Part shown: positions 12,675 to 32,055 of the stretch, one piece after another
Numbering within the stretch: position 1 is the stretch's first letter
Layout: each line of letters begins with the position of its first letter
Program-made: the position numbers and the translations under genes
The notes under the pieces: generated by a model
Databases searched by the model: none
What the model was told of the DNA's origin: nothing
What the model saw: the letters and a program-made list of their open reading frames with translations, nothing else
Source of the DNA: Mariprofundus sp. KV
Lineage (GTDB): Bacteria > Pseudomonadota > Zetaproteobacteria > Mariprofundales > Mariprofundaceae
NCBI RefSeq assembly: GCF_013387475.1
Contig: NZ_VWNB01000011.1
Coordinates: forward strand, 1 to 64,000
Direction of reading: 5' to 3'
Length of the DNA: 64,000 nt

Positions 12675-15600
12675 ATGAAAGAGATCATCAATCAGCTCGC
12701 CTCACATGATCTTCTGCAGGATATTGTTGAAGGGGTTCCGATCCGTATTTTCTGGAAGGATCGTGATGGAGTATTCTTGGGATGCAATACGCTTGTGGCC
12801 AAAGATGCAGGATTGGACTCCCCGGATGAGCTGATCGGCAAAACCGATTTTGACTTTAACTGGTCTGATCAGGCTGAGGCCTACCGCGCTGATGATTTCA
12901 AAGTCATGGAGTCCGGGATATCCAGGCTTGCTTATGAGGAGCCACAAACCACCCCCAATGGCGCCACTATCTGGCTGCGCACCTCTAAAGTCCCTCTACG
13001 CGATGATCAACAGAACGTTATCGGTATTCTGGGGGTTTACGAAGATATCACCGCCGAAAAGCTTAAACAGTCAAAACTCATCGCTTCAGAAACAACCCTG
13101 AGGAACATCTTCAACAGTCTGCAGGATGCCTATTACCGTACCGACATTGAAGGTCATATCGTCATGGTCTCCCCTTCCGCAGAGACCATGATGGCATGTG
13201 CAACTGGTGAACTGCAGGGCAAAAGCATTGCCAACTTCTACGTGAATCCGGATGAACGGCAACTGTTTCTGGATGTGCTTCGCGAGGGTGGAGGCATTGT
13301 AAATAACTTCGAGGCCCAGATCAGAAGAGTGGATGGTGAAGTCATATGGGTCTCAACCAATGCTCACTATTTTCGTGATGAACATGGCAATGTCACCGGA
13401 GTTGAGGGCACCATCCGGGATGTAACCCGGCTCAAGCAGCAGGAAGAGGAGCTGCAGCTGGCCAAGTTCGTTCTCGACCATGCACCGCTGAATATCACTT
13501 ATCTGGATTCGGATGCCCGTATCCGCTACATCAACAAAACGGGCTGTGAAACACTCGGTTATACGCAGGAAGAGCTTCTGCAGATGAGTATCCCGGATAT
13601 TGATCCCCTCTTCCCTATGCAGGTATGGCATGAGCACTGGAAGGATCTGAAACAGAACATCTCTGTGCCCGTTGAAACAGAACATCAACGTAAAAATGGT
13701 GAGCGCTTCCCTATCGAAGTGATCGCCAACTACATCGAGTTTGGCGACAAGGCTTACAATGTCGCTTTCGACAGGGATATCAGCGAGCGCAAAAAGGCTG
13801 AAACTGTCCTGCAACGGTTCCGCATAGCGATTGATAACAGTGCCGATTCCATCTTTCTTATTGATCGTGACTCGATGAGGTTCATCGATGTAAATGAAGA
13901 AGCCAGCAGGCGAATGGGGTATTCACGGGATGAGTTTCTCGCCATGGGACCGAGTGACATCAAACCTTATGTCACCCGAACAGCGTTGGAAGAGACCTTT
14001 GACCGCCTGATCAATCAGAAAGATGAATCCGGAATTATCGAAACGATCCACGCATGCAAAGACGGCAGTGAGTTTCCGGTCGAAGTTCGACTGAAAACAT
14101 TTAAGGAGGACGACAGACAGATACTGGTTGCCATCGCACGCGACATTAGCGATCAGAAGCTGGCTGAAGATAAACTTGAACAGGAGGCCAGATTCCGCAG
14201 CCAGATTCTGGAGCAGGCCTCTGAAGGTATCGCCCTCTGGCGAGCCAGTAGTGACGAAGGTGAAGCTGAATTCCTCACCTGGAATCGTCGTATGCAGGAG
14301 ATTACAGGCTACTCTCGTGAGGAGATTAACGCTCTGGGCTGGCTGGAGACCATGTATAGTGACATATCGGAGAGAGAGAGGGCCCGCCTGACCATGCAGA
14401 AGGTCCTGCAGGGTGAAATCAATCACAGTACGGATTTCAACATTGTCACCAAAAGTGGTGAGTCCCGTACCATTCACATCTCTTCAACATCCATTCAACG
14501 TGATAATTCAGCGCTCTGTGTGCTGGCAGTAATTCAAGACATCACCGCAAGCAGGCGCCAGCAGGAGCTTCTGGAGGCCAGTCAAAAGCGTTTCAGTATG
14601 CTGTTCGACGCCTCCAGTGACGGCCTGTTCATTATTGATATGCAGGGTAACTTCATTGATATCAACAGAACTGCATATGAGCGGCTGGGTTATAGCAAAG
14701 AAGAGATGATGGCCATGAGGCTTACGGATCTGGATCCACCAGAGTTTGCGGCCAGGGTTCCGCAACGTCTGGCTCAAATAAAAAAACATGGCATGGCAGT
14801 GTTTGAAACAGCCCATTACCGTAATGATGGCTCCATCATGCCTGTGGAGATCAACGCCAGAATTATTGAGCTTGATGGAGAGATGGTATTTTTCAGCGTT
14901 ATTCGTGATATCAGTGAGCGCAAGACGCTTGAAGGACAGCTGCGTCAGGCTCTGAAAATGGAGGCGATCGGTACACTTGTTGGCGGCATTGCTCACGACT
15001 TCAATAACATGCTGGCCGCTATTCAGGGTAACCTCTATCTGGCGACCAAGCAGATGCAGGATCACCCGGTGGCGGCCGACAAACTCTCAAATATCGAAAA
15101 ACTTACCGCTCGCGCTACCGAAATGGTACAGCAGCTGCTCACCTTCGCCCGTGAAGGCAGCGTGGAGATGCGTGTCTTTTCACTCAACAGATTCATGGAT
15201 GACGGATATAAACTGGCCAAAACGCTTATCCCGGAAAACATTGATCATCAGACCAGCACATGCAGTGAACCACTCCACATCAAAGGCGATGCCACTCAAC
15301 TGCAACAGGTGCTGATGAACCTGCTCAACAACGCTGTGGATGCCCTCGCTGATACTGGCGAACCGATGATCCGATGCACTCTGGAGCCGTTTAAAGCAAC
15401 GCGTCTGTTCAGGTTAAGGCACCCTGAATTGAGGGCATCCAATTTTGCCTGTCTGAGTATCAAAGATAATGGCTGCGGCATTCCCGGCGAACTGCTTGAT
15501 AAGGTGTTCGAGCCATTCTTTACCACCAAAGAGGTGGGTAAAGGAACCGGGCTCGGGTTGGCGATGCTCTATGGCGCTGTGCAGACTCATCATGGCGCAG

Positions 15601-16085
15601 TGGAGATCGACAGCAAGGTTGGTAAGGGCACCACATTCCGGATCTACCTCCCTCTGATTAAAGGTGGAATCGAAACAGTGGCAGAAACGTCTGACGTTTT
15701 ATCTGTTATCGAAAAAGGCCGAACTATCCTTCTGGTTGATGATGAAGAGAGCGTCAGAAGCACAACCAGTGAGGTGCTTTCGAGTATGGGCTACCATGTT
15801 ATGGAAGCTGAAAATGGTGAAGTCGCCCTGCAACTTTTCAAGGAGAACCGGGGCAGTATCGATATAATCATCTCTGATGTCATCATGCCCAGAATGGGTG
15901 GGGTTGAGCTCTTCAAGGCAGTGCGCCAGCTCAATGAGAAGATGCCCCTTATTCTGGTCACCGGTTACGACAGAGATCATGTGCTGGATAAAGGCATTCA
16001 GATGCAGAATGCGCTGGTGCTCAATAAACCCTTTGATTTTGATGAACTTTCCCGATCTATACAGGCCAATATCAGAACAGTTTAA
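12675..16085 (+). CDS. hybrid histidine kinase with six PAS domains and a receiver
   Basis: 1136 residues without any membrane helix, so a cytoplasmic sensor. Six tandem PAS or PAS-PAC units run from about residue 12 to 757; their ends are marked by the repeated DITAEK, DVTRLK, DISERK, DISDQK, DITASR and DISERK motifs. A HisKA domain follows with phospho-acceptor H774 in GGIAHDFNN, then an HATPase (DNGCGIP, FEPFFTTKEVGKGTGLGL) and a C-terminal receiver with D1068 in ISDVIMP. The HDFNN kinase class with a fused receiver usually passes phosphate onwards. The number of PAS units suggests several redox or ligand inputs. No partner regulator lies beside it; two similar membrane proteins flank it. 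Convergent with the next gene, with no bases between stops. Confidence 0.93.
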   Translation: MKEIINQLASHDLLQDIVEGVPIRIFWKDRDGVFLGCNTLVAKDAGLDSPDELIGKTDFDFNWSDQAEAYRADDFKVMESGISRLAYEEPQTTPNGATIWLRTSKVPLRDDQQNVIGILGVYEDITAEKLKQSKLIASETTLRNIFNSLQDAYYRTDIEGHIVMVSPSAETMMACATGELQGKSIANFYVNPDERQLFLDVLREGGGIVNNFEAQIRRVDGEVIWVSTNAHYFRDEHGNVTGVEGTIRDVTRLKQQEEELQLAKFVLDHAPLNITYLDSDARIRYINKTGCETLGYTQEELLQMSIPDIDPLFPMQVWHEHWKDLKQNISVPVETEHQRKNGERFPIEVIANYIEFGDKAYNVAFDRDISERKKAETVLQRFRIAIDNSADSIFLIDRDSMRFIDVNEEASRRMGYSRDEFLAMGPSDIKPYVTRTALEETFDRLINQKDESGIIETIHACKDGSEFPVEVRLKTFKEDDRQILVAIARDISDQKLAEDKLEQEARFRSQILEQASEGIALWRASSDEGEAEFLTWNRRMQEITGYSREEINALGWLETMYSDISERERARLTMQKVLQGEINHSTDFNIVTKSGESRTIHISSTSIQRDNSALCVLAVIQDITASRRQQELLEASQKRFSMLFDASSDGLFIIDMQGNFIDINRTAYERLGYSKEEMMAMRLTDLDPPEFAARVPQRLAQIKKHGMAVFETAHYRNDGSIMPVEINARIIELDGEMVFFSVIRDISERKTLEGQLRQALKMEAIGTLVGGIAHDFNNMLAAIQGNLYLATKQMQDHPVAADKLSNIEKLTARATEMVQQLLTFAREGSVEMRVFSLNRFMDDGYKLAKTLIPENIDHQTSTCSEPLHIKGDATQLQQVLMNLLNNAVDALADTGEPMIRCTLEPFKATRLFRLRHPELRASNFACLSIKDNGCGIPGELLDKVFEPFFTTKEVGKGTGLGLAMLYGAVQTHHGAVEIDSKVGKGTTFRIYLPLIKGGIETVAETSDVLSVIEKGRTILLVDDEESVRSTTSEVLSSMGYHVMEAENGEVALQLFKENRGSIDIIISDVIMPRMGGVELFKAVRQLNEKMPLILVTGYDRDHVLDKGIQMQNALVLNKPFDFDELSRSIQANIRTV

Positions 16086-16502
16086 CTACTCTGTCGGCCA
16101 GCCTGCGACATAGGCATCTCCGGAGAGTGCAAAGAGAAAGACCCGGCTCATCGCAAACAGAGCCGATATACTCAGGCTGGCGATCACATTCACCAGTAAT
16201 CGGGCCGCCAGCGTATCAGCTTTGACCAGATAACGCGGCATCAGCACAAAACTGCCCACCAGCCCTGCCCCGATCACCTGCATAATCCAGAAGAATTGCC
16301 ATATGCCTGTGCGCTCATAGAGCGCATCGATAGAACCGAAAAAGATATAGGCCATCGCAACAACGGTAAGCCACGGCACAAACAGAAAGATCAGTTCAAA
16401 AGGGTGGATAGTGTTAAACTCTCGCCCTTTGCTGTGCACCATAGAGGCAAAGATAACCAGCATCGCTGCATAGATCAGCAGTGACTGAAATAACGGACTC
16501 AA
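16086..16502 (-). CDS. four-helix membrane protein of unknown function (copy B)
   Basis: 138 residues with four predicted membrane helices. Its stop codon abuts the stop of the six-PAS kinase, and it lies last in the minus-strand run that begins with the ArsR-type regulator. Shared features with the protein at 12182-12595 are the P-W/F-L start of helix two, AYxxxFGSI, and a glycine-rich third helix ending in L/MPR. The protein starts with a short helix and an unusual charged loop (HSKGREFNTIHPFEL). No family recognised; function unknown. Confidence 0.65.
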   Translation of the reverse strand: MSPLFQSLLIYAAMLVIFASMVHSKGREFNTIHPFELIFLFVPWLTVVAMAYIFFGSIDALYERTGIWQFFWIMQVIGAGLVGSFVLMPRYLVKADTLAARLLVNVIASLSISALFAMSRVFLFALSGDAYVAGWPTE

Positions 16503-16521: not shown

Positions 16522-17175
16522 TCATAACCAGCCTCTCTGTTGCATGATTAATGCCAGTGATTCAAGCAGCATATTCACATTTTCAGGCAGAATCAAAAAC
16601 AGCATCATGGCAAGCAACATAATCATCACTCCAAGCAGCACAATGCCGCCAAGCATCGCCAGCAACACCTTCCAGCCACCAATCTGGCAGTGAAAGCGCA
16701 GCCCCTTCCAGTTCAGAACAAGATTCCACAGCGCCATTACCGGCCCCAGATAGGGCCCCCATGCAATGACAAAAGGCGGTCCGCTATAGGCGCAGACCTG
16801 AAACACCGCCAACAGAGAGACAGGTTTGCCGGAGAGCCTGCTTAACGACCAGCTCAACCACATACTCCATAGCAGTGAAGAAGAGAGACCGATAGCCAGT
16901 GATACCGGCAGAATGGAGACAAAGATAAGGGCTCCGACGAGCATGTTCGGAGCCAGACTTGATGCGATCGCCCCAAAGGTGGTGGTCATCAGAATAGATG
17001 GGATAGCCAGATACATGGCCAGAAGCGTGGCACTATCTTTAAGATTTTTTGCCTCGGGAAGGCCTGTGAACATCCTTTTCGGAAAGAAGAGCCCGACCAG
17101 AAAGATGGAGAAGAAGACTTCAGCCAGTTTGTCACGGCGATAGTAGGTGAACTGAGGATTGAAACGACTACTCAT
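16522..17175 (-). CDS. multi-pass membrane protein, possibly Yip1 family
   Basis: 217 residues. After a polar N-terminal stretch (about 30 residues with a membrane-proximal FFPKRMFTGLP) there are five or so hydrophobic segments. The layout, a short cytosolic start with a conserved F-x-G-L/M-P element followed by clustered helices, resembles bacterial Yip1-domain proteins (PF04893), whose role is not established. It sits between two other small membrane proteins of the same strand with gaps of 19 and 36 bases. The family assignment is tentative. Confidence 0.55.
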   Translation of the reverse strand: MSSRFNPQFTYYRRDKLAEVFFSIFLVGLFFPKRMFTGLPEAKNLKDSATLLAMYLAIPSILMTTTFGAIASSLAPNMLVGALIFVSILPVSLAIGLSSSLLWSMWLSWSLSRLSGKPVSLLAVFQVCAYSGPPFVIAWGPYLGPVMALWNLVLNWKGLRFHCQIGGWKVLLAMLGGIVLLGVMIMLLAMMLFLILPENVNMLLESLALIMQQRGWL

Positions 17176-17211: not shown

Positions 17212-17553
17212 TCAGTCAGCATCTGGCTGGCCGCTTACCTTCTCACCCTCTTTGAGCATCGACAGCAGGGATGATGCAGTAGCCAGTGCAAGCCTGAGCT
17301 CAACGGTTCTCGGAGCCACCAGCGCGGTGGCAACCACATTGCCGACACCCATCGCCACCATCAGCCATATAATTACAATCGGTGCGTAACTTGTCTCATA
17401 GGCGCTACCGGAAAAAAGCTGAAAAAACAGCACAATCGGGATAAAGAAGAGAACGATAGTCACAACAGCCCAGGCAATCACTCTTCTGGCGCTACGACCA
17501 TCCAGTTCACGCTGTGTCTCCGCTATCGCCTGCTCAAGTGTCTCTATGCTCAT
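17212..17553 (-). CDS. small two-helix membrane protein of unknown function
   Basis: 113 residues: an N-terminal helix with coiled-coil character (IETLEQAIAETQRELDG), two membrane segments at roughly 26-48 and 57-78, and a polar C-terminal tail. It follows osmC by 18 bases and precedes the Yip1-like gene by 36, so it is probably co-transcribed. No family recognised. Confidence 0.6.
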   Translation of the reverse strand: MSIETLEQAIAETQRELDGRSARRVIAWAVVTIVLFFIPIVLFFQLFSGSAYETSYAPIVIIWLMVAMGVGNVVATALVAPRTVELRLALATASSLLSMLKEGEKVSGQPDAD

Positions 17554-17571: not shown

Positions 17572-17973
17572 TCATTGCTCGGTAGTCAGATTGATAGTGA
17601 TATCGGGGGTCTGATGCAGTGTGGCATGAATCAGACATGATGATGCCACGCGCTCCACCGCCTTACGCCGTTTCTCAGGCAGCCCGGGCAGAACCACATC
17701 AATGGTAAACTCACCAATACGGCGTGGTGCATCTTCAGCAACACTCCAGTCGCAATCAACCTTGAGACCATCGGTATCAATGCCAGCCTGCTGACAATAT
17801 TTTGCTACATAGAAACCGATACAGCCAGCCAGTGAGCCTGCAAAGAATTCAGGCGGAGTCATGCCGGAATCTTCACCCCCATTGCTTTCTGGCTGATCCA
17901 TCACAATCGAGTGACCACGGCAGGCAATATCAAATGCCGCCCCACTTTTAAATGTCGCTGTTAATCTCGCCAT
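17572..17973 (-). CDS. OsmC family peroxiredoxin-like protein
   Basis: 133 residues, the full length of a short OsmC/YhfA-type protein. The two redox cysteines expected for the family are C51 (SLAGCIGFY) and C113 (VASSCLIHAT), and the core pattern GMTPPEFFAGSLAGC is clear. OsmC/Ohr proteins reduce organic hydroperoxides with these cysteines, and some members act on persulfides. Its location at the end of a rhodanese/DUF2892 cluster makes a thiol or sulfane-sulfur role as plausible as peroxide defence. A hairpin and a CAAAT-G-ATTTG dyad lie upstream (18022-18055). Confidence 0.88.
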   Translation of the reverse strand: MARLTATFKSGAAFDIACRGHSIVMDQPESNGGEDSGMTPPEFFAGSLAGCIGFYVAKYCQQAGIDTDGLKVDCDWSVAEDAPRRIGEFTIDVVLPGLPEKRRKAVERVASSCLIHATLHQTPDITINLTTEQ

Positions 17974-18021
17974 ATCTATTCACCATCCAGTTCTTTAAAC
18001 AACTGCCTTCGCCTCATCCAA

Positions 18022-18055
18022 CAGAGAGGTAAAACCTCTCTGCCAAATGATTTGG
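18022..18055. promoter_or_regulatory. hairpin plus CCAAATGATTTGG dyad upstream of osmC
   Basis: CAGAGAGGT (18022-18030) and ACCTCTCTG (18034-18042) form a perfect nine-base-pair stem with an AAA loop. Directly after it CCAAAT (18043-18048) and ATTTGG (18050-18055) form a second dyad around one G. Both lie between the DUF2892 stop and the osmC start. On the minus strand no U-run follows the large hairpin, so it may be a processing site or attenuator while the second dyad could be an operator. Confidence 0.5.
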
Positions 18056-18061
18056 AGATCT

Positions 18062-18262
18062 TTACTTGCTACAGGTATTGATACCCAGCAGCGGATAGAG
18101 CGGGCAGAACTTAATCAGTGCAGTCAGTACAAATACGCTGCCTGCACCGATGGCGACGGCATTCCATGGGGAAGCCAGGCCACCCATATAACCAAAGGCG
18201 ATCAGAGCCGCACCTGCTACCAGACGAAGTACACGATCGATTGTTCCAACATTTGCTTTCAT
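18062..18262 (-). CDS. DUF2892 membrane protein
   Basis: 66 residues. MKANVGTIDRVLRLVAGAALIAFG is the classic start of DUF2892 proteins, which have two membrane helices and a short end with a cysteine (here KFCPLYPLLGINTCSK). DUF2892 modules are often fused to or beside rhodaneses, as in E. coli YgaP, and are thought to place rhodanese activity at the membrane. The gene follows a rhodanese gene by 71 bases. A second, divergent member lies at 19716-19934. Confidence 0.9.
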   Translation of the reverse strand: MKANVGTIDRVLRLVAGAALIAFGYMGGLASPWNAVAIGAGSVFVLTALIKFCPLYPLLGINTCSK

Positions 18263-18333
18263 TAGTTATCTCCTGATTTTCTATTGTGTTGATTAAACTT
18301 ACCCCGGTATAACAATCTCTCTTTACCCTAGAG

Positions 18334-18672
18334 TCAATTGGCAGAGCCCTGTTCGGTGGGATAGCCACTGTTGCTCCAGGCCATGGTTCCACCACCGATA
18401 TTGATCAGATTGTCAAAACCACACTGCTGCTCAAGATAGGTTAGAGCCTGGGCAGAGCGAGCGCCCGAATGACAGATGAGAAAAACATCCCCCTCTTTTG
18501 GGATCTCATTGGCTCTGGCCATGATGGTGTTGAGCGCGATCAGCTTTGCACCGGGCACATGACAACCACGGTACTCCTCGGGTGAACGCACATCAATCAG
18601 TGTAATAGGCTGCTTCTTTTCACGCGCCACCAGCCAGCGCGGATAGAGTTGGTCTACGGTTAGTGTATTCAT
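18334..18672 (-). CDS. cytoplasmic single-domain rhodanese
   Basis: 112 residues from an ATG at 18672 that overlaps the stop of the preceding rhodanese gene (ATGA). A GTG 36 bases upstream is possible but would lie inside that gene. There is no signal peptide, so the protein should be cytoplasmic. The active-site loop is C67-HSGAR in FLICHSGARSAQ, and the CH2A motif IDVRSPEEY is intact. Single-domain rhodaneses carry sulfane sulfur as a cysteine persulfide. It is the last of three rhodaneses in a row. Confidence 0.88.
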   Translation of the reverse strand: MNTLTVDQLYPRWLVAREKKQPITLIDVRSPEEYRGCHVPGAKLIALNTIMARANEIPKEGDVFLICHSGARSAQALTYLEQQCGFDNLINIGGGTMAWSNSGYPTEQGSAN

Positions 18673-19094
18673 CACGGCTTCACCACCGCATGATTGGCCT
18701 CTTTCCATGCCGTGATGCCACCCAGTACATTCTCTATATTGGTGTGGCCGGCTTTTGCCAGCATGCCTGCTGCATCTGCAGAACGACGGCCCGAGCGGCA
18801 GTAGAGGTAGACCTGCTTATCCTTAGGCACCTCATTGATGCGCTCTGCCAACTCCTGCACGGGAATAAGCACTGCACCCTCAATATGCCCTTCGGCATAC
18901 TCCTCAGGTGTGCGCACATCGATAAAGACAAACGGCACAGCCGAAGAAGCACCCTGATTCCAGTGCTGGTAAGCGTGTTGTACTGCGGTGTTTTCATAAC
19001 CTTCAACACTCTTCTCGCCAAATCCGCAGGCTGCTGCACCCATCGGCAACATCATCACCACCGTCAGTAGCAACCAGACTCTCTTTGTAATCAT
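18672..19094 (-). CDS. exported single-domain rhodanese
   Basis: 140 residues from the ATG at 19094, which has GGAG at the right distance; an open frame upstream to 19256 would overlap the previous gene and lacks a start signal. A signal peptide (KRVWLLLTVVMMLPMGAAA) leads to a periplasmic rhodanese with FIDVRTPEEYAEGH and the loop C99-RSGRR. The cysteine at position 23 follows AAA, so acylation is possible but the lipobox is weak. Placement beside a cytoplasmic and a membrane-anchored rhodanese suggests a division of labour across compartments. Confidence 0.87.
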   Translation of the reverse strand: MITKRVWLLLTVVMMLPMGAAACGFGEKSVEGYENTAVQHAYQHWNQGASSAVPFVFIDVRTPEEYAEGHIEGAVLIPVQELAERINEVPKDKQVYLYCRSGRRSADAAGMLAKAGHTNIENVLGGITAWKEANHAVVKP

Positions 19095-19173
19095 CTCTAA
19101 CTCCTGTCGCTCTCTATGAGCAAATCTATTTATTCTCTTCTCTTCAATCGGTGACAATGTCACACGGGATAAA

Positions 19174-19572
19174 TCACCTGACCGGAAGCCCTGCACTGCG
19201 CCATGCCCCCATGCCACCGGAGAAGTTGTACACCTCACTGTAACCGGCATTGGCAAAGGCAGTTGCTGCCATCGATGAGCGTGTTCCTGATGCGCAGATC
19301 ACAATCACAACTTTATCTTTAGCAACCTCATGCATGCGTTCAGCCACCTCACCCAACGGAATATGAACTGCTGTGGAAGCATGCCCTGACTGCCACTCAC
19401 CGAGCTGGCGCACATCAACCAGGGTATGCTCCCGGTTGCGCAGCTGCATATAATCAGCCGCATTCAACGACTTTACACCGGAGATCTTCGGCCAGATCAC
19501 CCGCTGCCAGAGCATCCAGCCCAACAGAAGCGCGATGAAGATGTAAACCGCATTGTCTTGCATAAATTGCAT
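19174..19572 (-). CDS. membrane-anchored rhodanese
   Basis: 132 residues. One N-terminal membrane helix (about 9-24, VYIFIALLLGWMLWQRV) is followed by a rhodanese domain with VDVRQLGEWQSGH and the active loop C93-ASGTR. The anchor matches YibN-type rhodaneses, whose catalytic domain faces the cytoplasm in E. coli; orientation here is not proven. The gene is separated from DUF2892 and the RND pump by 143 bases containing a 12-base G/C homopolymer. Confidence 0.88.
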   Translation of the reverse strand: MQFMQDNAVYIFIALLLGWMLWQRVIWPKISGVKSLNAADYMQLRNREHTLVDVRQLGEWQSGHASTAVHIPLGEVAERMHEVAKDKVVIVICASGTRSSMAATAFANAGYSEVYNFSGGMGAWRSAGLPVR

Positions 19573-19659
19573 CTATCTATCCTCACGATTCAGAGAGATC
19601 AGCTGTTTTAGCATCTCTCTGTAGATTTTTATCGGCAGGCGCAAACGACTTTCACGTAT

Positions 19660-19671
19660 GGGGGGGGGGGG
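19660..19671. repeat. G12 homopolymer tract
   Basis: Twelve consecutive G bases on the plus strand (C on the transcribed minus strand), flanked by GCAGGCG on the left and CGCCTGC on the right. The tract is about 88 bases upstream of the membrane-anchored rhodanese start. Tracts of this length slip readily in replication and in sequencing. Confidence 0.9.
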
Positions 19672-19715
19672 AGAAGCCGCCTGCGCCCGCCAATCTTGTT
19701 GACCCTTTCAGGCCC

Positions 19716-19934
19716 CTACTTCTCGCAGCAGGGTTTCATGCCGAGCTTGGCAAGAATGGTCTCCATCAGACACCAGTTGGTGAAACCCGACTGCAGCAGG
19801 TTCACACCGATAAATGCGGTGAACCAGAGCCAGCTGGGTTCAGTTAACACCACACCGTTATAGCGTGATGCCAGAAACAGGCTGAGCAGAATAAATGAGC
19901 CCGCAATAATGCGAATAGCGCGTTGAATAGTCAC
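19716..19934 (-). CDS. DUF2892 membrane protein, divergent member
   Basis: 72 residues. The N-terminus MTIQRAIRIIAGSFILLS, two membrane helices, and a cysteine-containing end (NWCLMETILAKLGMKPCCEK) match the DUF2892 pattern. The tail carries C55 and an adjacent CC near the end, more cysteines than in the copy at 18062. The gene follows the RND permease by 25 bases, tying the pump to the rhodanese genes downstream. Confidence 0.85.
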   Translation of the reverse strand: MTIQRAIRIIAGSFILLSLFLASRYNGVVLTEPSWLWFTAFIGVNLLQSGFTNWCLMETILAKLGMKPCCEK

Positions 19935-19959
19935 AAATCTTCTCCTTTACAGTTAATTT

Positions 19960-22900
19960 CTAAGAGGCTGGCTGTTCGGACTCGAATGGCCGATCTTTAA
20001 ACCACAGGTAGTACATCAGAGGTGTAATAAACAGCGTTAAGATCGTTGCTGCCAGTGTTCCGAAGGCCATCGAGACACCGAGCCCGCCAAATACCGGATC
20101 GGTGATCATGATCGAGGTGCCGGCAATCACAGCCAGTGCAGTGAGCAGAATCGGACGGGCACGAACCGCCCCACCCTCAAGCACAGACTCTTTCACTGAG
20201 AAGCCCTGCTTGCGGTAATCGACAATGAAATCGATCAGCAGTGTGGAGTTACGTACCACGATACCGGCAAGTGCGATCATGCCGATCATCGAGGTGGCGG
20301 TGAACGGTTGACTGGTGATCCAGTGGCCGGGAAAGATGCCGATCATCGTCAATGCAGTCGGTGCCATCACCATCATCGGCAGCACGAACTGGCCGTAATA
20401 GGCCACCATCAGCAGGTAGATCAATACCAGTGCAACAATAAAGGCTGCCCCCAGATCGCGGAACACATCCAGCGTCAGACGCATCTCACCATCCCAGAGC
20501 ATATGATAACCGAAGGTGTTATCCGGTGCGGTGTCGGTGAAACGCATTCCACCTGTTTTCACCTGCACGCCCGGCAGCATCTCCTGCTCATCGAGCTTGC
20601 CATCCATCTCCAGCAGCGGATAGACCTGTGATCCCTGTTTAGGCTCAGCCATCACATAGGTCACCGGATGTCCGTCTTTGGTGTAGATCGGTTTGGAGGC
20701 TTTGCCCTGCTCGATCACCGCAAAGGCGGAGAGTGGAACAGCACCATGCGAACCGGTTACATAGATGCGATGCAGATCCTCAGCATGAGCACGCAGCGCT
20801 TTCGGCAGCTGCACATGCAACTTCACCTGATGACGCTCTTCATCCATATGCACGGCACCAAAATGGTACCCCTGCAGGAAGTCGTGCAGTGCGGTGACTA
20901 CCTGCTGCGTGGCTACGCCCAGATGTGCTGCCTTCTCTTTATCGACACGCACATTCAGCTGCAACTGATCATCACCTACCGAATCATCAATATCTGTCAC
21001 GTCATAGGTATCAGCAAAGGTTTTACGCACCTCTTTGGCCAGCTGGCGCTGTGTCTCGTAATCAGGACCATAGATCTCAGCCAGCAGCGTTGAACGCACC
21101 GGTGGCCCCGGCGGATCTTCAACCAGTTTAATATTGGCATCAGGATTAGCCGCAATCAGTGGCGCCATCAGTTCTCGCAGCTCCAGCACAATAGCATCAG
21201 AGCGAATCGAGCGATCATGTTTATCCACCAGATTGACACGGATCTCGGCCAGATTGGCCCCCTGCCTGAGCACAGAACCACGCAGCATGCCGTTAAAATC
21301 GACAGGCCCTGCCTGACCTACAAAGGTTTCGTAATCCACCACCATCGGATGGGAACGCAGCAGATCACCCACTTCACGACTCACCCGATCACTCTCTTCA
21401 AGGGTTGCCCCCTCCGGCAGATCGATGGTGATATTAAAGGTGTTGTTATCCCCTTTCGGCAACATCTTCAGCTCAACCGTACCCGGTGTAAGTGGCCCGT
21501 TGATACCGGCTGGCCGGATAAACTGCCAGCCCGGCTGCATCATTGAGCCGACAAACAGAAGCAACGTGATGATCCAGAATATCCTGCGAATAGCAGGTTT
21601 CTCGATCAGAGGCACGGCATAACGCATATAGGCCCGGTAGACCCAGTCCTTATGCGAGTCATCAATGTGATCTGATGTGGATGTCTGTATTTTGGCAGGC
21701 AGAAAACGCTGTGCAATCCACGGCGTGAACATATAAGCGATCACCAGCGAGGCTGCCATGGCAACCGGTGCATTAAACGGAATCGGCCCCATATATGGCC
21801 CCATCATGCCGGTCACAAAAGCCATTGGAACAAAAGCCAGGATCACCGCGATGGTGGCGATAATGGTCGGTTTACCGGTCTCATTGGTGGCAATCACAAT
21901 CAGTCGCGCTTTATCAGCGGCATCCTTCACACCTTTGTGCAGATGGCGGTGGATATTCTCGATCACCACAATGGCATCGTCGACCAGCAGACCAAGCGCC
22001 AGAATCAGAGCAAAGAGTGTGATACGGTTGATGGTCTGATCAGCCATCAGTCCGATGGCCAGCACCACAAACAGAATCAGCGGAATATTCAGCGTTACAA
22101 TGGTCGCCTCACGCCAGCCGAGAAAGAGCAGCAGAATCAGAATCACAGTACCGATTGCGATACCCAAGTGTTCAATCAGCATATTTACAGCGGCATTGGC
22201 GCGCTGACCTGAATCACGCGTGATGGTTGCGACAACATTATCCGGGATAAAGTCGCCTTTAAGTTCATTGAGCTTATCTTCAATACGCTGGGTCACCACC
22301 ACAGCATTGGTACCACGTTTTTTGGCCAGCGTGATGGAGACTGCAGGCAATTCAGGTTCGCCCACACCAGCATTGCCACTCACCGCGTGACCAAAACCGA
22401 TTCGGTGATAGTTCTCTGCCTCAGCAGCACCATCGGTGATGGTGGCGATATCCTTCAGATAGATCGGTCTGTTCTGCCACTGGCCAACCACCAGCTGACC
22501 AACCTCATCGGCTGTTTTCAGGTAACCATCGAGCCATATTTTGGTCTGGCTATTGTTCCCCACAAGTGAACCAACCGGGCCACCGGCATTGGCCGATACC
22601 AGAACCCTGTGCAGCTGATCCAGTGGAATGTGGTAAGCGGCCAGACGCGCCGGATCCAGACGGATGCCGATCTCATGGTCACGGCCACCGATAATCTCGG
22701 CAACCGATACCCCTTCCAGTGGTGCCAGCTGATCACGAACACGCTCTGCCAGCCGTTTAAGGGCTAAGCCGTCCATATCCCGTGATGAGAGTGTAATTAC
22801 CGAAGCCGGCACATCATCGACATCCACCGGTTTCACCAGAGGCTGGGTAGCCCCGGCAGGGATACGATCCATATTCTGCATGATGCGGTCATAGAGTTTG

Positions 22901-23262
22901 ACCAGGCTGACCTCTTTGTCCTCACCCACTTCAAACATCACCGTAACAACGGCCAGTGAATCCATCGCCATGCCATAGGTGTGCTCAACACCAGTAATCT
23001 CGCGCAGCACCATCTCCATTGGCCGCACAATCAGATTCTGCACCTCTTCAGGGCTTGCCCCCTGCATCTGTACAAAGACATTGGCAGCCGGCACATCAAT
23101 CTGCGGATTCTCTTCACGCGGCGTCACCATAAGCGCAACAGCACCGATCAGGAAGATCAGGATACTGAGCATCGGGGTCATGTTGGAGAACATCGCCGCC
23201 TTACCCAGACGCCCTGCAATATTCAGTGGTTCACCACTATTCAAAGATGGTTTGTCGCTCAT
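19960..23262 (-). CDS. RND efflux permease, HAE1/AcrB superfamily
   Basis: 1100 residues, the length of a full RND pump subunit with twelve helices and two large periplasmic loops. The motif LGLLVDDAIVVIENIHRHL in the fourth helix holds the paired aspartates of the proton relay, and the C-terminal half repeats the fold (GIVVRNSTLLIDFI). It is closer to drug/hydrophobe or poorly known pumps than to CusA, since the methionine triad of metal pumps is not visible. Its ATG shares one base with the stop of the adaptor gene. Substrate unknown; linkage to rhodaneses suggests a sulfur compound or an agent co-occurring with one. Confidence 0.93.
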   Translation of the reverse strand: MSDKPSLNSGEPLNIAGRLGKAAMFSNMTPMLSILIFLIGAVALMVTPREENPQIDVPAANVFVQMQGASPEEVQNLIVRPMEMVLREITGVEHTYGMAMDSLAVVTVMFEVGEDKEVSLVKLYDRIMQNMDRIPAGATQPLVKPVDVDDVPASVITLSSRDMDGLALKRLAERVRDQLAPLEGVSVAEIIGGRDHEIGIRLDPARLAAYHIPLDQLHRVLVSANAGGPVGSLVGNNSQTKIWLDGYLKTADEVGQLVVGQWQNRPIYLKDIATITDGAAEAENYHRIGFGHAVSGNAGVGEPELPAVSITLAKKRGTNAVVVTQRIEDKLNELKGDFIPDNVVATITRDSGQRANAAVNMLIEHLGIAIGTVILILLLFLGWREATIVTLNIPLILFVVLAIGLMADQTINRITLFALILALGLLVDDAIVVIENIHRHLHKGVKDAADKARLIVIATNETGKPTIIATIAVILAFVPMAFVTGMMGPYMGPIPFNAPVAMAASLVIAYMFTPWIAQRFLPAKIQTSTSDHIDDSHKDWVYRAYMRYAVPLIEKPAIRRIFWIITLLLFVGSMMQPGWQFIRPAGINGPLTPGTVELKMLPKGDNNTFNITIDLPEGATLEESDRVSREVGDLLRSHPMVVDYETFVGQAGPVDFNGMLRGSVLRQGANLAEIRVNLVDKHDRSIRSDAIVLELRELMAPLIAANPDANIKLVEDPPGPPVRSTLLAEIYGPDYETQRQLAKEVRKTFADTYDVTDIDDSVGDDQLQLNVRVDKEKAAHLGVATQQVVTALHDFLQGYHFGAVHMDEERHQVKLHVQLPKALRAHAEDLHRIYVTGSHGAVPLSAFAVIEQGKASKPIYTKDGHPVTYVMAEPKQGSQVYPLLEMDGKLDEQEMLPGVQVKTGGMRFTDTAPDNTFGYHMLWDGEMRLTLDVFRDLGAAFIVALVLIYLLMVAYYGQFVLPMMVMAPTALTMIGIFPGHWITSQPFTATSMIGMIALAGIVVRNSTLLIDFIVDYRKQGFSVKESVLEGGAVRARPILLTALAVIAGTSIMITDPVFGGLGVSMAFGTLAATILTLFITPLMYYLWFKDRPFESEQPAS

Positions 23263-24287
23263 TATTTGGCCATCACCTTCATGCCGCTCTGCAGTTGAGG
23301 CTCTCCACTCCAGAGGATGGTGTCACCTTCATGAAGACCGGCCAGCACCTCAACCTGATCAGCACGCTGCTGCCCCAGTCGAATCTGGCGATAGCGAGCA
23401 ACCCCCTGACCATCAAGCACATAAATTCCATTAAGCCCGGCACGCTTGATCACTGCCACAACAGGCACCTGCAGCCCCTGACGACTACCTACCTTAAAAC
23501 CAACCTGCGCATACATGCCCGGGTGCACATCTTCACGCGCCTGTAGTGCAATCTTGATCAGAAACTGATGTGAGACGGCATCGGCAGCCTGTACCACCTG
23601 GCGCACGACACCGCTAAAGGCCTGTTTAAGAGATGAGACCTCAATCTCAACCTCATCGCCGATGTGGATACCACTAACAAACTGATCAGAGGCATGTGTC
23701 TCCACCAGCAGGCTGGCGGGATCTTCCAGCACAAGGATTGCAGCACCCGGTGATGCCAGATCACCCTTACTCAAGCGCTTCTCAACCACCACGCCATCAA
23801 CCGGTGAACGAACCTCGGCATAACCGAGCTGGTTACGCGCCTGCTCAACCTGTGAACGGGCTACTTTATAACGCAGATTCACACGATCCAGCTGCTGCTT
23901 ACTCACAGCACCGGCTTTAAACAGCTCTTCATAACGATTCATATCAGCTTTGGCATCAGCCAGATCAGCCTCAGCCTGCACCAGCCCCTGACGGGCATTG
24001 ACAGGGTCAACGCGAACCAGCACATCTCCGGCTTTCACACTGTCGCCTTCACGCACCGAAAGTTTGCGGATATAGCCTGAGATGCGTGAGGTGATTGAGA
24101 CACGGTGATCCGAAGTGACGGTGCCACTGGTGACATAACGAACGGGCAGCTCTACAGCCACGAGAGTCAGAGCCTCGGCTTTAGCGACAACAGGTACAGC
24201 TGTTTGCCCGGCCTGATCATCGGAACCGCAGGAGGCAAGCATCAATCCTGCTGAAAGCATCGCTGCAGTAGCGAGAAATCTGTTCAT
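23262..24287 (-). CDS. RND pump periplasmic adaptor (membrane fusion protein)
   Basis: 341 residues. A lipobox (MLASC) gives an acylated protein anchored in the inner membrane. The HlyD/MFP order is clear: beta-barrel strands, lipoyl halves (SGYIRKLSVREGDSVKAGDVLVRVDP and later AEVRSPVDGVVVEKRLSKGD), and a coiled-coil hairpin (about residues 100-155). The gene overlaps the tolC-like gene by four bases and the permease by one, giving a standard three-part pump operon. Confidence 0.93.
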   Translation of the reverse strand: MNRFLATAAMLSAGLMLASCGSDDQAGQTAVPVVAKAEALTLVAVELPVRYVTSGTVTSDHRVSITSRISGYIRKLSVREGDSVKAGDVLVRVDPVNARQGLVQAEADLADAKADMNRYEELFKAGAVSKQQLDRVNLRYKVARSQVEQARNQLGYAEVRSPVDGVVVEKRLSKGDLASPGAAILVLEDPASLLVETHASDQFVSGIHIGDEVEIEVSSLKQAFSGVVRQVVQAADAVSHQFLIKIALQAREDVHPGMYAQVGFKVGSRQGLQVPVVAVIKRAGLNGIYVLDGQGVARYRQIRLGQQRADQVEVLAGLHEGDTILWSGEPQLQSGMKVMAK

Positions 24288-25660
24288 TGAATCACCCCTT
24301 CATCAAGTGTACCGGTTGCCAGCAGCAGTGCAGCCTCTGCAACGGTGAGATCATATTTGGCGCGAATGGCCGCAACACGGGCCGAGTCAGCCTGTACCTG
24401 CGCATCAAGCAGATCGGAGGTTTTGGCCAACCCCTGCTCAAAACGCAGTGATTTAATGCGCAGTGACTCCTCGCTCTGCTTGAGTGCTTCACTCTCGCTC
24501 TCATAACGCAGTCGACTCTCAGCCAGCTGACGCCAGGCCTGTCCGATCTCATTATGAATCTGCTGTTTCATATCTGCGGATTTATACTCCAGCGATACAG
24601 ACTCAGCCTGAGCAGCACGATGTTTCGCACGATCAGAGCCCCCGGCGAAGATATTCATGCTGACGGTTGCCCCCACCATGGTATTACGATTTTTCACGCC
24701 AAAGGTGGATGCGTTCCACTCCTGTGCCGCAACCAGATTCACATGCGGAAGAAATGAGGCGCGTGACTGATCAACAGCTGCCGAGGAGGCCAGATACTGC
24801 TCTTCAACCGCTTTCAGATCGGGACGATTGGCAAGCCCGTGATTGATCGCCTCCTGCAACGCGAGCACAGGCATCTTCAGCTGCGGATCCTCTTCGGTAT
24901 TCAGGGTGACATCACCATTGAGTCCCATAACCCGCTCCAGCATCTCTTTACTGCTGGCAAAGCTGTTTTTCGCCTCTTCAAGTTTGAGCGTGGTGCGCAG
25001 CTGATGCACATTGGCATCCATCACATCACTCATAATCAACATACCACGCTTCTGCATTTCCTGGGTATCTCTGTAACGTTTATCAGCCGCAGTGACAGCG
25101 CGCTGCATGGCCGTGATCTGAGCTTGTGACTGCCGTACACGTGCATAGGCAGAGATCACCTGAAATACCACCTGCTGGCGCATAAAACTGTGTCCATAGA
25201 GGCTTGCTTCGGCGCGGTGCTCGGCAAGTTTACGCCCGGCCCATAGCGCGCCGCCCTGATAGAGCGGCATAGTGACACCGACACGGCTCTGATAGTTATT
25301 GATATAACCGGGGTTATTCATCACCGCCGGATTAAAATCAGCGGCAGTGATACTGCGCTGATTCAGCTTCATACCGAAATAGTCGCCCGGCGCATTGCTG
25401 CGCGCCACTCCGGTAGAGAGATCAACACGCGGCAACAACCGACCTGTTGCATCGGCAATACCCGCACTGGCCTGCTCCACCGACTGTGCATTGGCTGCCA
25501 GCATGCGATTATTGGAGAGCGCATAATCGACACTCTGCCTGAGCGTGGATATCTCACCGGCAGCAGCAGTGGCAGTCGTTACCGCAAGGGTGGCCGCCAG
25601 CAGCGACCCCTTTATTAAGTAATTAGAATTTACTGATATGTAAGGGCAAAAAAAGGCCAT
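24284..25660 (-). CDS. TolC-like outer membrane efflux channel
   Basis: 458 residues from the ATG at 25660, which overlaps the stop of the ArsR-type gene (ATGA) and has a strong ribosome-binding site (GGGGAGGG). An earlier start at 25687 would lie within that gene. The two OEP repeats characteristic of TolC are present, with a signal peptide ending near ATAAAGE and the LPRVDLSTGV and LPHVNLVAAQEW strand motifs. It provides the outer-membrane duct for the MFP-RND pump downstream. Confidence 0.92.
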   Translation of the reverse strand: MAFFCPYISVNSNYLIKGSLLAATLAVTTATAAAGEISTLRQSVDYALSNNRMLAANAQSVEQASAGIADATGRLLPRVDLSTGVARSNAPGDYFGMKLNQRSITAADFNPAVMNNPGYINNYQSRVGVTMPLYQGGALWAGRKLAEHRAEASLYGHSFMRQQVVFQVISAYARVRQSQAQITAMQRAVTAADKRYRDTQEMQKRGMLIMSDVMDANVHQLRTTLKLEEAKNSFASSKEMLERVMGLNGDVTLNTEEDPQLKMPVLALQEAINHGLANRPDLKAVEEQYLASSAAVDQSRASFLPHVNLVAAQEWNASTFGVKNRNTMVGATVSMNIFAGGSDRAKHRAAQAESVSLEYKSADMKQQIHNEIGQAWRQLAESRLRYESESEALKQSEESLRIKSLRFEQGLAKTSDLLDAQVQADSARVAAIRAKYDLTVAEAALLLATGTLDEGVIQ

Positions 25661-25989
25661 CAGCCCTCCCCTTTCGGGGCCACACACATCTCAGGGCAGT
25701 AGATGAACTTCAGCGCATGTACCAGATCGGCAAAAGCCGGATTGGCGATACGGTAGATCACTTCCTGACCACGTTTCTCATTCTCAAGAATGCCAAGCAT
25801 ACGCATCTTGGAGAGATGCTGTGAGAGATTGGACTGCGCTGCACCTGTAGCCTCAATCAACTCGTGGACACACATCGGCCGCTCCAGCAACAGGCAGAGA
25901 ACAGAGAGACGCAACTCGTGCGCAATCGCCCTTAAACCCTGGCTGGCAGCTTTGATTCTATCTTCTGGGATCTGAGGTAATTCATTCAT
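25660..25989 (-). CDS. ArsR family regulator with paired cysteines (SqrR/BigR-like)
   Basis: 109 residues, a single winged-helix domain (KAASQGLRAIAHELRLSVL, GAAQSNLSQHLSKM recognition helix). It carries C32, C40, C98 and C102. C40 in helix three and C98 or C102 in the last helix sit where SqrR and BigR, known persulfide sensors, hold their sensing pair. The classic ArsR metal motif ELCVCDL is absent. The gene opens a co-directional run of pump, DUF2892, rhodanese and osmC genes and is divergent from an ABC exporter. Inferred role: repressor released by sulfane sulfur or a related oxidant. Metal sensing remains possible. Confidence 0.85.
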   Translation of the reverse strand: MNELPQIPEDRIKAASQGLRAIAHELRLSVLCLLLERPMCVHELIEATGAAQSNLSQHLSKMRMLGILENEKRGQEVIYRIANPAFADLVHALKFIYCPEMCVAPKGEG

Positions 25990-25995
25990 ACCCCG

Positions 25996-26021
25996 TAATA
26001 TATTCGATTCTAATTATATTA
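25996..26021. promoter_or_regulatory. AT-rich inverted repeat between arsR and the ABC exporter
   Basis: TAATATA (25996-26002) and TATATTA (26015-26021) are perfect inverted arms separated by twelve bases, seven bases upstream of the arsR ATG. A second AT-rich stretch with AATATTATATT follows at 26031-26041. ArsR-family proteins bind AT-rich dyads of this general form, so this is the likely autoregulatory site and may also serve the divergent exporter. Confidence 0.55.
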
Positions 26022-26084
26022 GCAACATGTAATATTATATTTTCTATGCATTGCAGTTGTAGCCGGATATGGGAGATTAGGGCT

Positions 26085-27002
26085 ATGAGTCAAGCCGTAG
26101 TCAGCGCCAAATCTCTGCGCAAAACATTCGGACATCGCGATGTGGTCTGCGGTATCAATTTCGATATCCGACCCGGCATCTGCTTTGGTATTCTCGGCCC
26201 TAACGGGGCGGGAAAAACGACCCTGATCCGCATGCTGATGGGACTCTCCCCTGTCACCTCCGGTGACTATCACCTCTTTGGTAGTGATGTCTCGGATACC
26301 TCCATTCACAGTCGTGTTGGTGTTGTGCCGCAACAGGATAATCTTGATCCCGACTTCTCGGTACGGCTGAATCTGAAGGTCTACGCGGGCTACTTCGGTA
26401 TCGACTCCAAAACGGCTGAATCACGTATTGAGGAGCTGCTCGAATTTGCCGCACTCTCCTCACGCGGTGATGATCAGGTAGCTACCCTCTCCGGTGGTAT
26501 GCGCAGGCGCCTTATGGTGGCCCGTGCCCTGATCAATGATCCTGATCTGGTTGTGCTCGATGAGCCCTCCACAGGTCTCGATCCGCAAGCCCGTCATCTG
26601 ATCTGGCAACGGCTGCGTTCACTGAAGGCAGCTGGTAAAACACTGATTCTGACCACCCACTATATGGAGGAGGCTGCCGAACTGTGTGATGAATTGATGG
26701 TGCTAGATCACGGTAATATTTTAACACGTGGTTCACTACGCGAGCTGATCAGTGAGCATGTGGAACCGGAGGTGGTGGCAATCCGCGGACTACACAATGA
26801 ACTTGATGCCATTGAACTCTGTGAAGGACTGGATATCCGCCGCGATCATGTCGGCGATACCTGGTTCTGCTACGCCATTGATGCCCGTCCTCTGGTGGCG
26901 CGCTGTGCCGAGCGCCCTGAGCTCACCTTCATCCATCGCCCCTCCTCGCTGGAGGATCTCTTCCTTAAACTTACCGGCCGCGACATGAGGGAGGAGGCGT
27001 GA
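26085..27002 (+). CDS. ABC exporter ATP-binding protein, NodI-like
   Basis: 305 residues from the ATG at 26085, with GGGAG nine bases upstream; an ATG at 26046 would lie in the promoter region. Walker A is GPNGAGKT, the signature is LSGGMRRR, Walker B is LVVLDEPSTGLDP, and the HYMEEAAELCD switch region is typical of ABC-2 exporters in the NodI/DrrA/CcmA-like group. The C-terminal 80 residues are an accessory domain found in NodI-like proteins. It overlaps the permease by four bases. Substrate unknown. Confidence 0.9.
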   Translation: MSQAVVSAKSLRKTFGHRDVVCGINFDIRPGICFGILGPNGAGKTTLIRMLMGLSPVTSGDYHLFGSDVSDTSIHSRVGVVPQQDNLDPDFSVRLNLKVYAGYFGIDSKTAESRIEELLEFAALSSRGDDQVATLSGGMRRRLMVARALINDPDLVVLDEPSTGLDPQARHLIWQRLRSLKAAGKTLILTTHYMEEAAELCDELMVLDHGNILTRGSLRELISEHVEPEVVAIRGLHNELDAIELCEGLDIRRDHVGDTWFCYAIDARPLVARCAERPELTFIHRPSSLEDLFLKLTGRDMREEA

Positions 27003-27775
27003 TCCTCTTCCATCTTGCTCCAACCCGTGTGCTGGCTGTCTGGCGGCGCAACTTTCTCGTCTGGAAACAGCTGGCTGGTGCCTCAATGCTGGGCAACTTC
27101 GGTGATCCTTTCCTCTATCTGCTGGGGCTGGGTTATGGGCTTGGTGCCTACATCGGTGATATGGGCGGCATCCCCTACATGGCCTATCTGGCCAGCGGCA
27201 TTCTCTGCTCAAGTGCCATGAATACCGCCACCTTCGAAAGTCTCTATTCAGCCTTCACTCGCATGAACCAGCAGGGCACCTGGGAATCGATGCTCGCCAC
27301 ACCGGTGCGAGTGCAGGAGATCATTGCCGGCGAGCAGATCTGGGCCGCCACCAAGAGCCTTATCAGTGGCACAGCAATCTTTCTTGTCGCCGGTCTGCTC
27401 GGTGGTATTCAGCAGTGGGAAACCGCCCTTCTCGCCCTGCCTGTGATCTTCCTGATCGGCCTGGCATTTTCAGGACCTGCACTGGCAATCTGTGCCATCT
27501 CCCCCAGCTACGATTTCTTCCTCTACTACTTCACGCTGGCTGTCACGCCGATGTTCCTCTTCTGCGGTGTTTTTTACCCCATTGATACCCTGCCAAACCC
27601 TGTTCAGCTCATTGCCCAGCTTCTGCCTCTGACCCACGCTGTGGCACTGATTCGCCCGCTGTTGACCGAAATGCCGCTGACTTTGCCGTGGCTGCATGTC
27701 GGCGTTCTTGCGCTTTATGCCGCAGGTGGATTCACCCTTGCAACCCGCCTGGCCTCCCGACGCCTTATTCGCTAA
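26999..27775 (+). CDS. ABC-2 exporter permease, NodJ-like
   Basis: 258 residues with six predicted membrane helices, beginning at a GTG that overlaps the ATPase stop (GTGA). The conserved NodJ/ABC-2 signature is visible: QGTWESMLATPVRVQEIIAGEQIWAATKS and, near the end, FCGVFYPIDTLPNPVQLIAQLLPLTHAVALIRPLL. NodIJ homologues in non-rhizobia export hydrophobic or glycan-like molecules of unknown identity. It lies divergent from the arsR-type operon and may share its control region. Confidence 0.9.
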   Translation: MILFHLAPTRVLAVWRRNFLVWKQLAGASMLGNFGDPFLYLLGLGYGLGAYIGDMGGIPYMAYLASGILCSSAMNTATFESLYSAFTRMNQQGTWESMLATPVRVQEIIAGEQIWAATKSLISGTAIFLVAGLLGGIQQWETALLALPVIFLIGLAFSGPALAICAISPSYDFFLYYFTLAVTPMFLFCGVFYPIDTLPNPVQLIAQLLPLTHAVALIRPLLTEMPLTLPWLHVGVLALYAAGGFTLATRLASRRLIR

Positions 27776-31868: not shown

Positions 31869-31880
31869 ATATTATAATAT
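31869..31880. promoter_or_regulatory. 12-bp AT-only palindrome upstream of the sqr-like gene
   Basis: ATATTATAATAT at 31869-31880 is a perfect palindrome about 60 bases before the sqr-like ATG. It shares the AATATTATA core with the AT-rich stretch at 26031-26041 next to the ArsR-type gene, so the same regulator could bind both. Inference only. Confidence 0.4.
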
Positions 31881-32055
31881 TGTTATATGTCAAGCATCAC
31901 GTTATCCTATGATTGTAACAGAAAAATCAGAACGTGCTTGAATGCGTGTGAATTCAGACCATCAGCTTGATAGAAGTGAGGTTGTTTTAAAGCTGTTTTG
32001 TGAACACCAGCTTCGTCACTCAACGCCTGTATTGACTTGTTGCCTTCTGAATACG

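Follow-up and report, generated by a model that had tools for sequence, protein, structure and literature searches.

An RND pump joined to DUF2892 proteins and three rhodaneses in a predicted sulfide-response operon of Mariprofundus sp. KV

It is poorly explained how bacteria rid themselves of excess sulfane sulfur, and how sulfur oxidised at the membrane leaves the cell; the routes known so far are export of sulfite and oxidation by enzymes. A gene run of Mariprofundus sp. KV raises the question of whether a pump can provide another. It lies in the first 64,000 nucleotides of contig NZ_VWNB01000011.1 (assembly GCF_013387475.1), a stretch called the window here, and it places a tripartite resistance-nodulation-division (RND) pump beside an ArsR-type regulator, two DUF2892 proteins, three rhodaneses and an OsmC-like protein. 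The question is of relevance to those iron oxidisers that live at the zones where sulfide and oxygen meet.

It is well supported that this operon is a response to sulfide or persulfide, because of the cysteines of its regulator, its synteny, the predicted regulon marked by its putative operator and the linkage between the RND and DUF2892 genes. That the pump exports sulfane sulfur is plausible. Taking both together, we favour, with some confidence though not a great deal, an operon whose RND pump is derepressed under sulfide or persulfide and expels a sulfane-sulfur product.

The initial annotation had described a co-directional run with mostly short gaps or overlaps, and the open reading frames and Pfam matches bear this out. 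Ten genes follow one another on the minus strand from 25989 to 17572, in the order ArsR, TolC, periplasmic adaptor (membrane fusion protein, MFP), RND, DUF2892, three rhodaneses, DUF2892 and OsmC. In the same order, the junctions measure -1, -4, -1, 25, 143, 79, -1, 71 and 88 bases; there are four overlaps of 1-4 bases, the largest gap is of 143 bases, and it is the rhodanese, DUF2892 and OsmC genes that are more loosely joined. Start codons were picked by overlap and Shine-Dalgarno context.

The layout is not a matter of chance, since ArsR, the TolC-type channel (OEP), MFP, RND, DUF2892 and three rhodaneses are present on an unbroken contig in 15 relatives of the genus and family (L041-L049, L051, L053-L057), nearly all with the same gene order. 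The exceptions are L053, in the order of its rhodaneses, and L054, where one rhodanese scores as another type. The 15 were found among contigs long enough to show the arrangement; in further relatives the cluster is broken by contig ends. Hence, the linkage of pump and rhodaneses is shared well beyond a single strain, and the doubt attached to it at the outset, that it might be confined to this one, falls away. Most members of the genus have an RND orthologue, at 73-90% identity, orthologues in the same family and order are 69-76% identical, and the nearest named relatives by this gene are Mariprofundus and other Zetaproteobacteria. Between the rhodanese, DUF2892 and OsmC genes, the relatives carry insertions of sulfide:quinone oxidoreductase (SQR), TauE/SafE-like, DUF302, Crp/Fnr, AhpD-like and di-haem cytochrome genes. 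The inserted SQR is type-I-like (PDB match to the A. ferrooxidans SQR, 2e-148), and the TauE/SafE-like membrane protein was assigned by eye.

Regulator and predicted operator

The first gene of the run (25660-25989, minus strand) encodes an ArsR/SmtB-type regulator (Pfam HTH_5) of the BigR/SqrR/YgaV/HlyU group. YgaV is its nearest solved protein, with BigR, HlyU and SqrR among the next PDB matches. In the alignment, C32 and C98 fall on the cysteine pair of YgaV, BigR and SqrR, and this pair is the mark of the sulfane-sulfur-responsive ArsR members (PMC12423496). Of 15 ArsR homologues, including those of Paracoccus and Salinivibrio, all have C98 and all but one have C32.

A putative operator, ATATTACATGTTGCTAATATAAT, with the palindrome ATATTA-N8-TAATAT, lies on the minus strand at 26013-26035, 23 bases ahead of the ArsR start, and overlaps a promoter-like TTGCTA-17-TATATT. 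Across 11 relatives, no sequence ahead of ArsR is better conserved than the palindrome, and it is here that the regulator would be expected to bind. In the whole genome (2.53 Mb in 28 contigs), the 23-base form occurs exactly at two places only, namely in the promoters of ArsR and of a cytochrome b561 gene, the latter gene being followed by one of FGE-sulfatase type (L211:4253-5661, contig C6). The operator also precedes a cytochrome b gene in five relatives. A second operator-like site with one mismatch, for which shuffling gives an expectation of 0.02 per window, is present on the minus strand at 31869-31888, upstream of a gene for an SQR-family flavoprotein (30352-31809, minus strand; PDB SQR 3hyv, 3.2e-39), a candidate member of the regulon. 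A similar site precedes its orthologue in five close relatives, but not convincingly in L223. The operon begins about 4.4 kb downstream of this SQR-like gene, whose orthologues in G008 and G012 are close to the cluster.

A search of 23 genomes of the genus for the 23-base form (ATATTAN8TAATATAAT) gave 21 unique exact sites, spread over 13 of the genomes; the reversed control pattern gave none. Seventeen of these sites precede five types of gene: the ArsR operon (five), cytochrome b561 (six), SQR (two), cytochrome bd subunit I (two) and thioredoxin (two). The remaining four precede other genes. By their coordinates, the SQR genes lie about 0.3 kb downstream of the exact sites. The cytochrome bd subunit I genes with an operator are L251:1705-3021 and L269:1602-3020, and in G002 such a gene is about 2 kb beyond the pump cluster; the thioredoxin genes (L252:1611-1979, L263:1559-1930) belong to two species. 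In A. baumannii, sulfide has been reported to induce cydAB (PMC7315123).

Beyond the genus, the motif is found ahead of the pump-locus ArsR exactly in L059, which belongs to the same phylum, with one mismatch in L142 and L058, and with two in L107 (Acidobacteria), L117 (Opitutaceae) and L196 (Rhizobium). The ArsR of L059 keeps the exact operator but is without the first sensing cysteine. Ahead of ArsR in the distant loci L040, L072, L081, L094, L099 and L113, no operator motif was found, and the operator is not universal ahead of distant ArsR genes. A general best-palindrome score per promoter did no better than shuffling, unlike the specific motif. The box ATTC-N8-GAAT, which we take to be SqrR-like, was also considered; it matches the window at two places against 1.28 expected by chance, and neither is at the operon. 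Similarly, the cytochrome b of the regulon was set aside as an orthologue of the pump-adjacent cytochrome b of Paracoccus, as the two share a Pfam family but their pairwise similarity is too weak.

From the gene content and order, the conservation of the cluster, its cysteines and its operator, and the RND-DUF2892 linkage, all of which are observed, we infer the chemistry of sensing, the binding of the operator, the substrate of the pump and any hand-over from rhodanese to pump. As long as sulfane sulfur is scarce, the ArsR-type repressor would sit on the palindrome over its own promoter. Once sulfide is oxidised, for instance by SQR, the resulting polysulfide and persulfides would cross-link C32 and C98. 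The cross-linked repressor would then leave, and the operon, SQR and the partner respiratory genes would be expressed. The theme of sulfane sulfur, which the initial annotation had joined to the pump, is thus upheld by the cysteine pair of ArsR, by the SQR, cytochrome bd and thioredoxin genes of the predicted regulon, and by the SQR and TauE-like insertions of the relatives.

The pump clade and its DUF2892 partner

The pump consists of a TolC-family outer-membrane channel (24284-25660; Pfam OEP, 3.7e-63; its start taken from the 1-base overlap with ArsR), an MFP predicted to be a lipoprotein by its lipobox LASC (23262-24287; TIGR01730 above cut-off) and an RND permease (19960-23262; Pfam ACR_tran, 9e-151), all on the minus strand. 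The permease belongs to the hydrophobe/amphiphile efflux (HAE) type, as it has the ACR_tran domain, the aspartate pair of transmembrane helix (TM) 4 in the motif VDD, and MFP and TolC partners. In the alignment, D428 and R1004-N1005-S1006 are invariant. The best PDB match is MdtB (217 bits), and the clade is without a close solved structure. Cysteine avoidance was considered as a trait of the pump and rejected; the window RND has no cysteine, but the clade and control means are not clearly apart (1.06 and 1.61 vs 1.15).

The permease falls in a separate clade, about 25% identical to the other RNDs of the same genomes. The best 80 of many loci from a profile search were kept; with named Mariprofundaceae and Zetaproteobacteria records left out, these came to 73 clade loci from Pseudomonadota, Nitrospirota, Bacteroidota, Acidobacteriota, Geobacter relatives and others, a count that includes L080, labelled Gammaproteobacteria and 67% identical, though it is possibly a zeta relative. 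Of the 73, 41 have a DUF2892 gene no more than 3 kb away, against none of 39 control RND loci under the same models (p = 8e-11, inexact because the loci are related by descent). The flanks are cut in one-third of the clade loci, and this bias works against the link. The controls came from the 41 genomes of the RND orthologue search and were for the most part picked to be no more than 29% identical; the tree places them outside the clade, through which the DUF2892-linked loci are scattered. Within the same 3 kb, a rhodanese or an ArsR gene was found in 10 clade loci each and SQR in 4, against none in the controls.

In 40 of 54 RND-linked cases, the DUF2892 gene follows downstream of the RND gene and shares its strand, and a cysteine after TM2 is kept in all 54 homologues. 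DUF2892/YgaP-like TM protein a of the window (19716-19934, minus strand; GTG start; Pfam 1.4e-12) is of this RND-linked type and has the invariant cysteine. RND and DUF2892 form a core that is conserved more widely than the triple rhodanese. Sulfur-related neighbours recur in independent annotated records. On Paracoccus plasmids, a metallo-beta-lactamase (MBL) protein resembling persulfide dioxygenase (PDO), DUF2892, YeeE, a sulfurtransferase, ArsR, cytochromes and a second DUF2892 accompany MFP, RND and an FAD oxidoreductase; Salinivibrio has RND-MFP-DUF2892 with ArsR and FAD oxidoreductase/SQR-like genes; and Rhizobium plasmids have ArsR, FAD oxidoreductase, DUF2892, MFP and RND.

As for the substrate, the tripartite pump would expel a sulfane-sulfur product that builds up in the periplasm or within the membrane. 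What it takes up there is more likely to be hydrophobic or amphiphilic than a metal ion, because of the TM4 motif VDD and a score well under the cut-off for metal RNDs (256 vs 701 bits for TIGR00914, the heavy-metal efflux type of CusA and CzcA). Since SQR makes polysulfide or elemental sulfur at the membrane, the best guess is hydrophobic elemental sulfur or polysulfanes, or else thiol-polysulfide adducts. The same motif and score count against the strongest of the alternatives, in which the operon does respond to sulfide, but what leaves through the pump is metal-sulfide complexes, metals or damaged thiol metabolites and not sulfane sulfur. In an iron oxidiser such as Mariprofundus, iron-sulfide chemistry would matter, and H2S-induced RND pumps have been interpreted in this manner (PMC5358917). 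No metal-binding partner was found, however, the recurrent partner being DUF2892, and we consider this alternative improbable.

Several points weigh against the favoured explanation. The regulator scores 57.4 against a curated BigR equivalog cut-off of 155, and for this reason it is placed in the wider BigR/SqrR/YgaV group and not with BigR itself. Another regulator could read the AT-rich palindrome; several clusters hold a Crp/Fnr gene. None of the ten genes encodes a PDO-like MBL protein, as a detoxification operon of the cst/BigR type would have, and a search for a PDO homologue elsewhere in the genome returned just a short, weak match (28.9 bits). In Azospira suillum, an MFP-SQR-RND-unknown operon (Dsui_3440-3443), indicated by Bar-seq, is highly expressed under H2S; its deletion left the rate of H2S oxidation unchanged, and the authors suggest export of metal sulfide or against general toxicity (PMC5358917). 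Outside the family, the links to rhodanese, ArsR and SQR are weaker (10, 10 and 4 of the 73), and in 32 of the 73 clade loci no DUF2892 gene was found within 3 kb.

This last count would also suit an ordinary multidrug or biocide pump, placed under a sulfide-sensing regulator since sulfide co-occurs with other envelope stresses, with the rhodaneses as independent passengers. RND pumps are often promiscuous, and clade members without sulfur genes exist, several with TetR regulators. Such a pump is nevertheless a slightly poorer prospect than metal export, as pump, DUF2892 and rhodaneses stay together in the 15 complete relatives, and the RND-DUF2892 linkage reaches across many phyla with its mostly downstream, same-strand placement.

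The export of sulfane sulfur remains the reading we favour for this operon. That the distinct RND clade and DUF2892 make up a widespread, dedicated exporter of elemental sulfur or polysulfanes, from the inner membrane across the envelope and partly under persulfide-sensing ArsR repressors, is a more tentative proposal, and we would sooner bet against it. If true, such an exporter could be the missing route by which sulfide-exposed bacteria of many phyla shed sulfane sulfur. A DUF2892-tied pump clade, controlled by a persulfide-type sensor whose operator can be recognised, is a concrete candidate for this role, and the operator offers a simple motif for the mapping of sulfide regulons.

Rhodaneses and flanking genes

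The run holds three of the five Pfam rhodaneses of the genome. All three have the CxxGxR active-site loop, which is also kept in their orthologues: a membrane-anchored, single-domain protein (19174-19572; CASGTR), an exported one whose signal sequence ends in AAAC and which may be a lipoprotein (18672-19094; CRSGRR), and a cytoplasmic one (18334-18672; CHSGAR). The anchored rhodanese has a single TM with an N-terminus of net charge -1 before it and R24, K29 and K34 after it; by the positive-inside rule, its domain probably faces the cytoplasm. The suggestion of one rhodanese per compartment, made in the initial annotation, is thus not supported, the prediction being two cytoplasmic domains and one exported. 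Since substrates normally enter RND pumps from the membrane or the periplasm, a direct hand-over would be open to the exported rhodanese alone. The triple arrangement was seen in the Zetaproteobacteria group only, with fewer rhodaneses in the loci elsewhere.

A three-compartment relay, in which successive rhodaneses pass persulfide sulfur from the cytoplasm via DUF2892 to the exported rhodanese and then the pump, is doubtful and has as little chance as the multidrug pump: the active loops are conserved, the DUF2892 cysteine is invariant and the TM domain of YgaP, of the DUF2892 family, binds thiocyanate near C159 and is a proposed exporter of it (PMC4730233), but the anchored rhodanese probably faces the cytoplasm, and loci outside Zetaproteobacteria keep RND-DUF2892 with fewer rhodaneses. 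The thiocyanate proposal is compatible with a DUF2892 protein that would help small sulfur species across the inner membrane. Under the favoured export reading, the handling and movement of sulfane sulfur at the inner membrane would fall to OsmC, both DUF2892 proteins and the rhodaneses of the cytoplasm and the membrane, and its handling in the periplasm to the exported rhodanese.

The run is completed by DUF2892/YgaP-like TM protein b (18062-18262; Pfam 1.1e-21) and an OsmC-like protein with five cysteines (17572-17973; Pfam 4.3e-17; weak PDB OsmC matches), both on the minus strand. C51 and C113 of the latter presumably stand at the positions of the OsmC redox pair. Two more DUF2892 genes are present in the genome (L200 on contig C27, L201 on contig C25). 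The operon tail may extend as far as 16086, as three more co-directional genes for membrane proteins follow at 17212-17553, 16522-17175 and 16086-16502, with gaps of 18, 36 and 19 bases. The second product is Yip1-like, below cut-off, some or all of the three are present in the relatives L041-L044, and synteny is kept in several relatives. By sequence reading, a very long multi-PAS histidine kinase with a receiver domain (12675-16085, plus strand) converges on this tail, and a divergent ABC-2 type pair of ATPase and permease (26046-27775, plus strand) adjoins the operon promoter. Rfam and tRNA scans of the window found nothing.

Comparison with known systems

The described BigR/SqrR/YgaV operons resemble this one in an ArsR protein with a dithiol pair, a linked rhodanese and DUF2892, and a palindrome at their own promoter. 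In the papers found, they control PDO, YeeE/YedE, YgaP or SQR, whereas the Mariprofundus operon adds a full TolC-MFP-RND system and three rhodaneses. In E. coli YgaVP, YgaV is the nearest solved regulator, and YgaP joins a rhodanese to a DUF2892-type TM domain; in Mariprofundus, the rhodanese at 19174-19572 and the DUF2892 at 19716-19934 are separate genes, both kinds are present in several copies, and they are joined to a pump. The RND linkage thus offers DUF2892 a functional context beyond YgaP. With the HAE-type tripartite pumps MdtB, MexB and AcrB, the permease shares its family, the proton-relay aspartate and the MFP and TolC partners, but it stands in a separate clade with a recurrent DUF2892 partner.

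The Azospira suillum operon is like the L142 locus in its gene order (MFP-SQR-RND-DUF2892); it differs from the Mariprofundus operon in that rhodanese, OsmC and ArsR are not described there. RND pumps have been listed, in general terms, among the genes near sulfane-sulfur-responsive ArsR regulators (PMC12423496). With respect to the open-licence literature found, in which neither they nor the triple-rhodanese cluster are described, the cross-phylum RND-DUF2892 link and the operator regulon are new.

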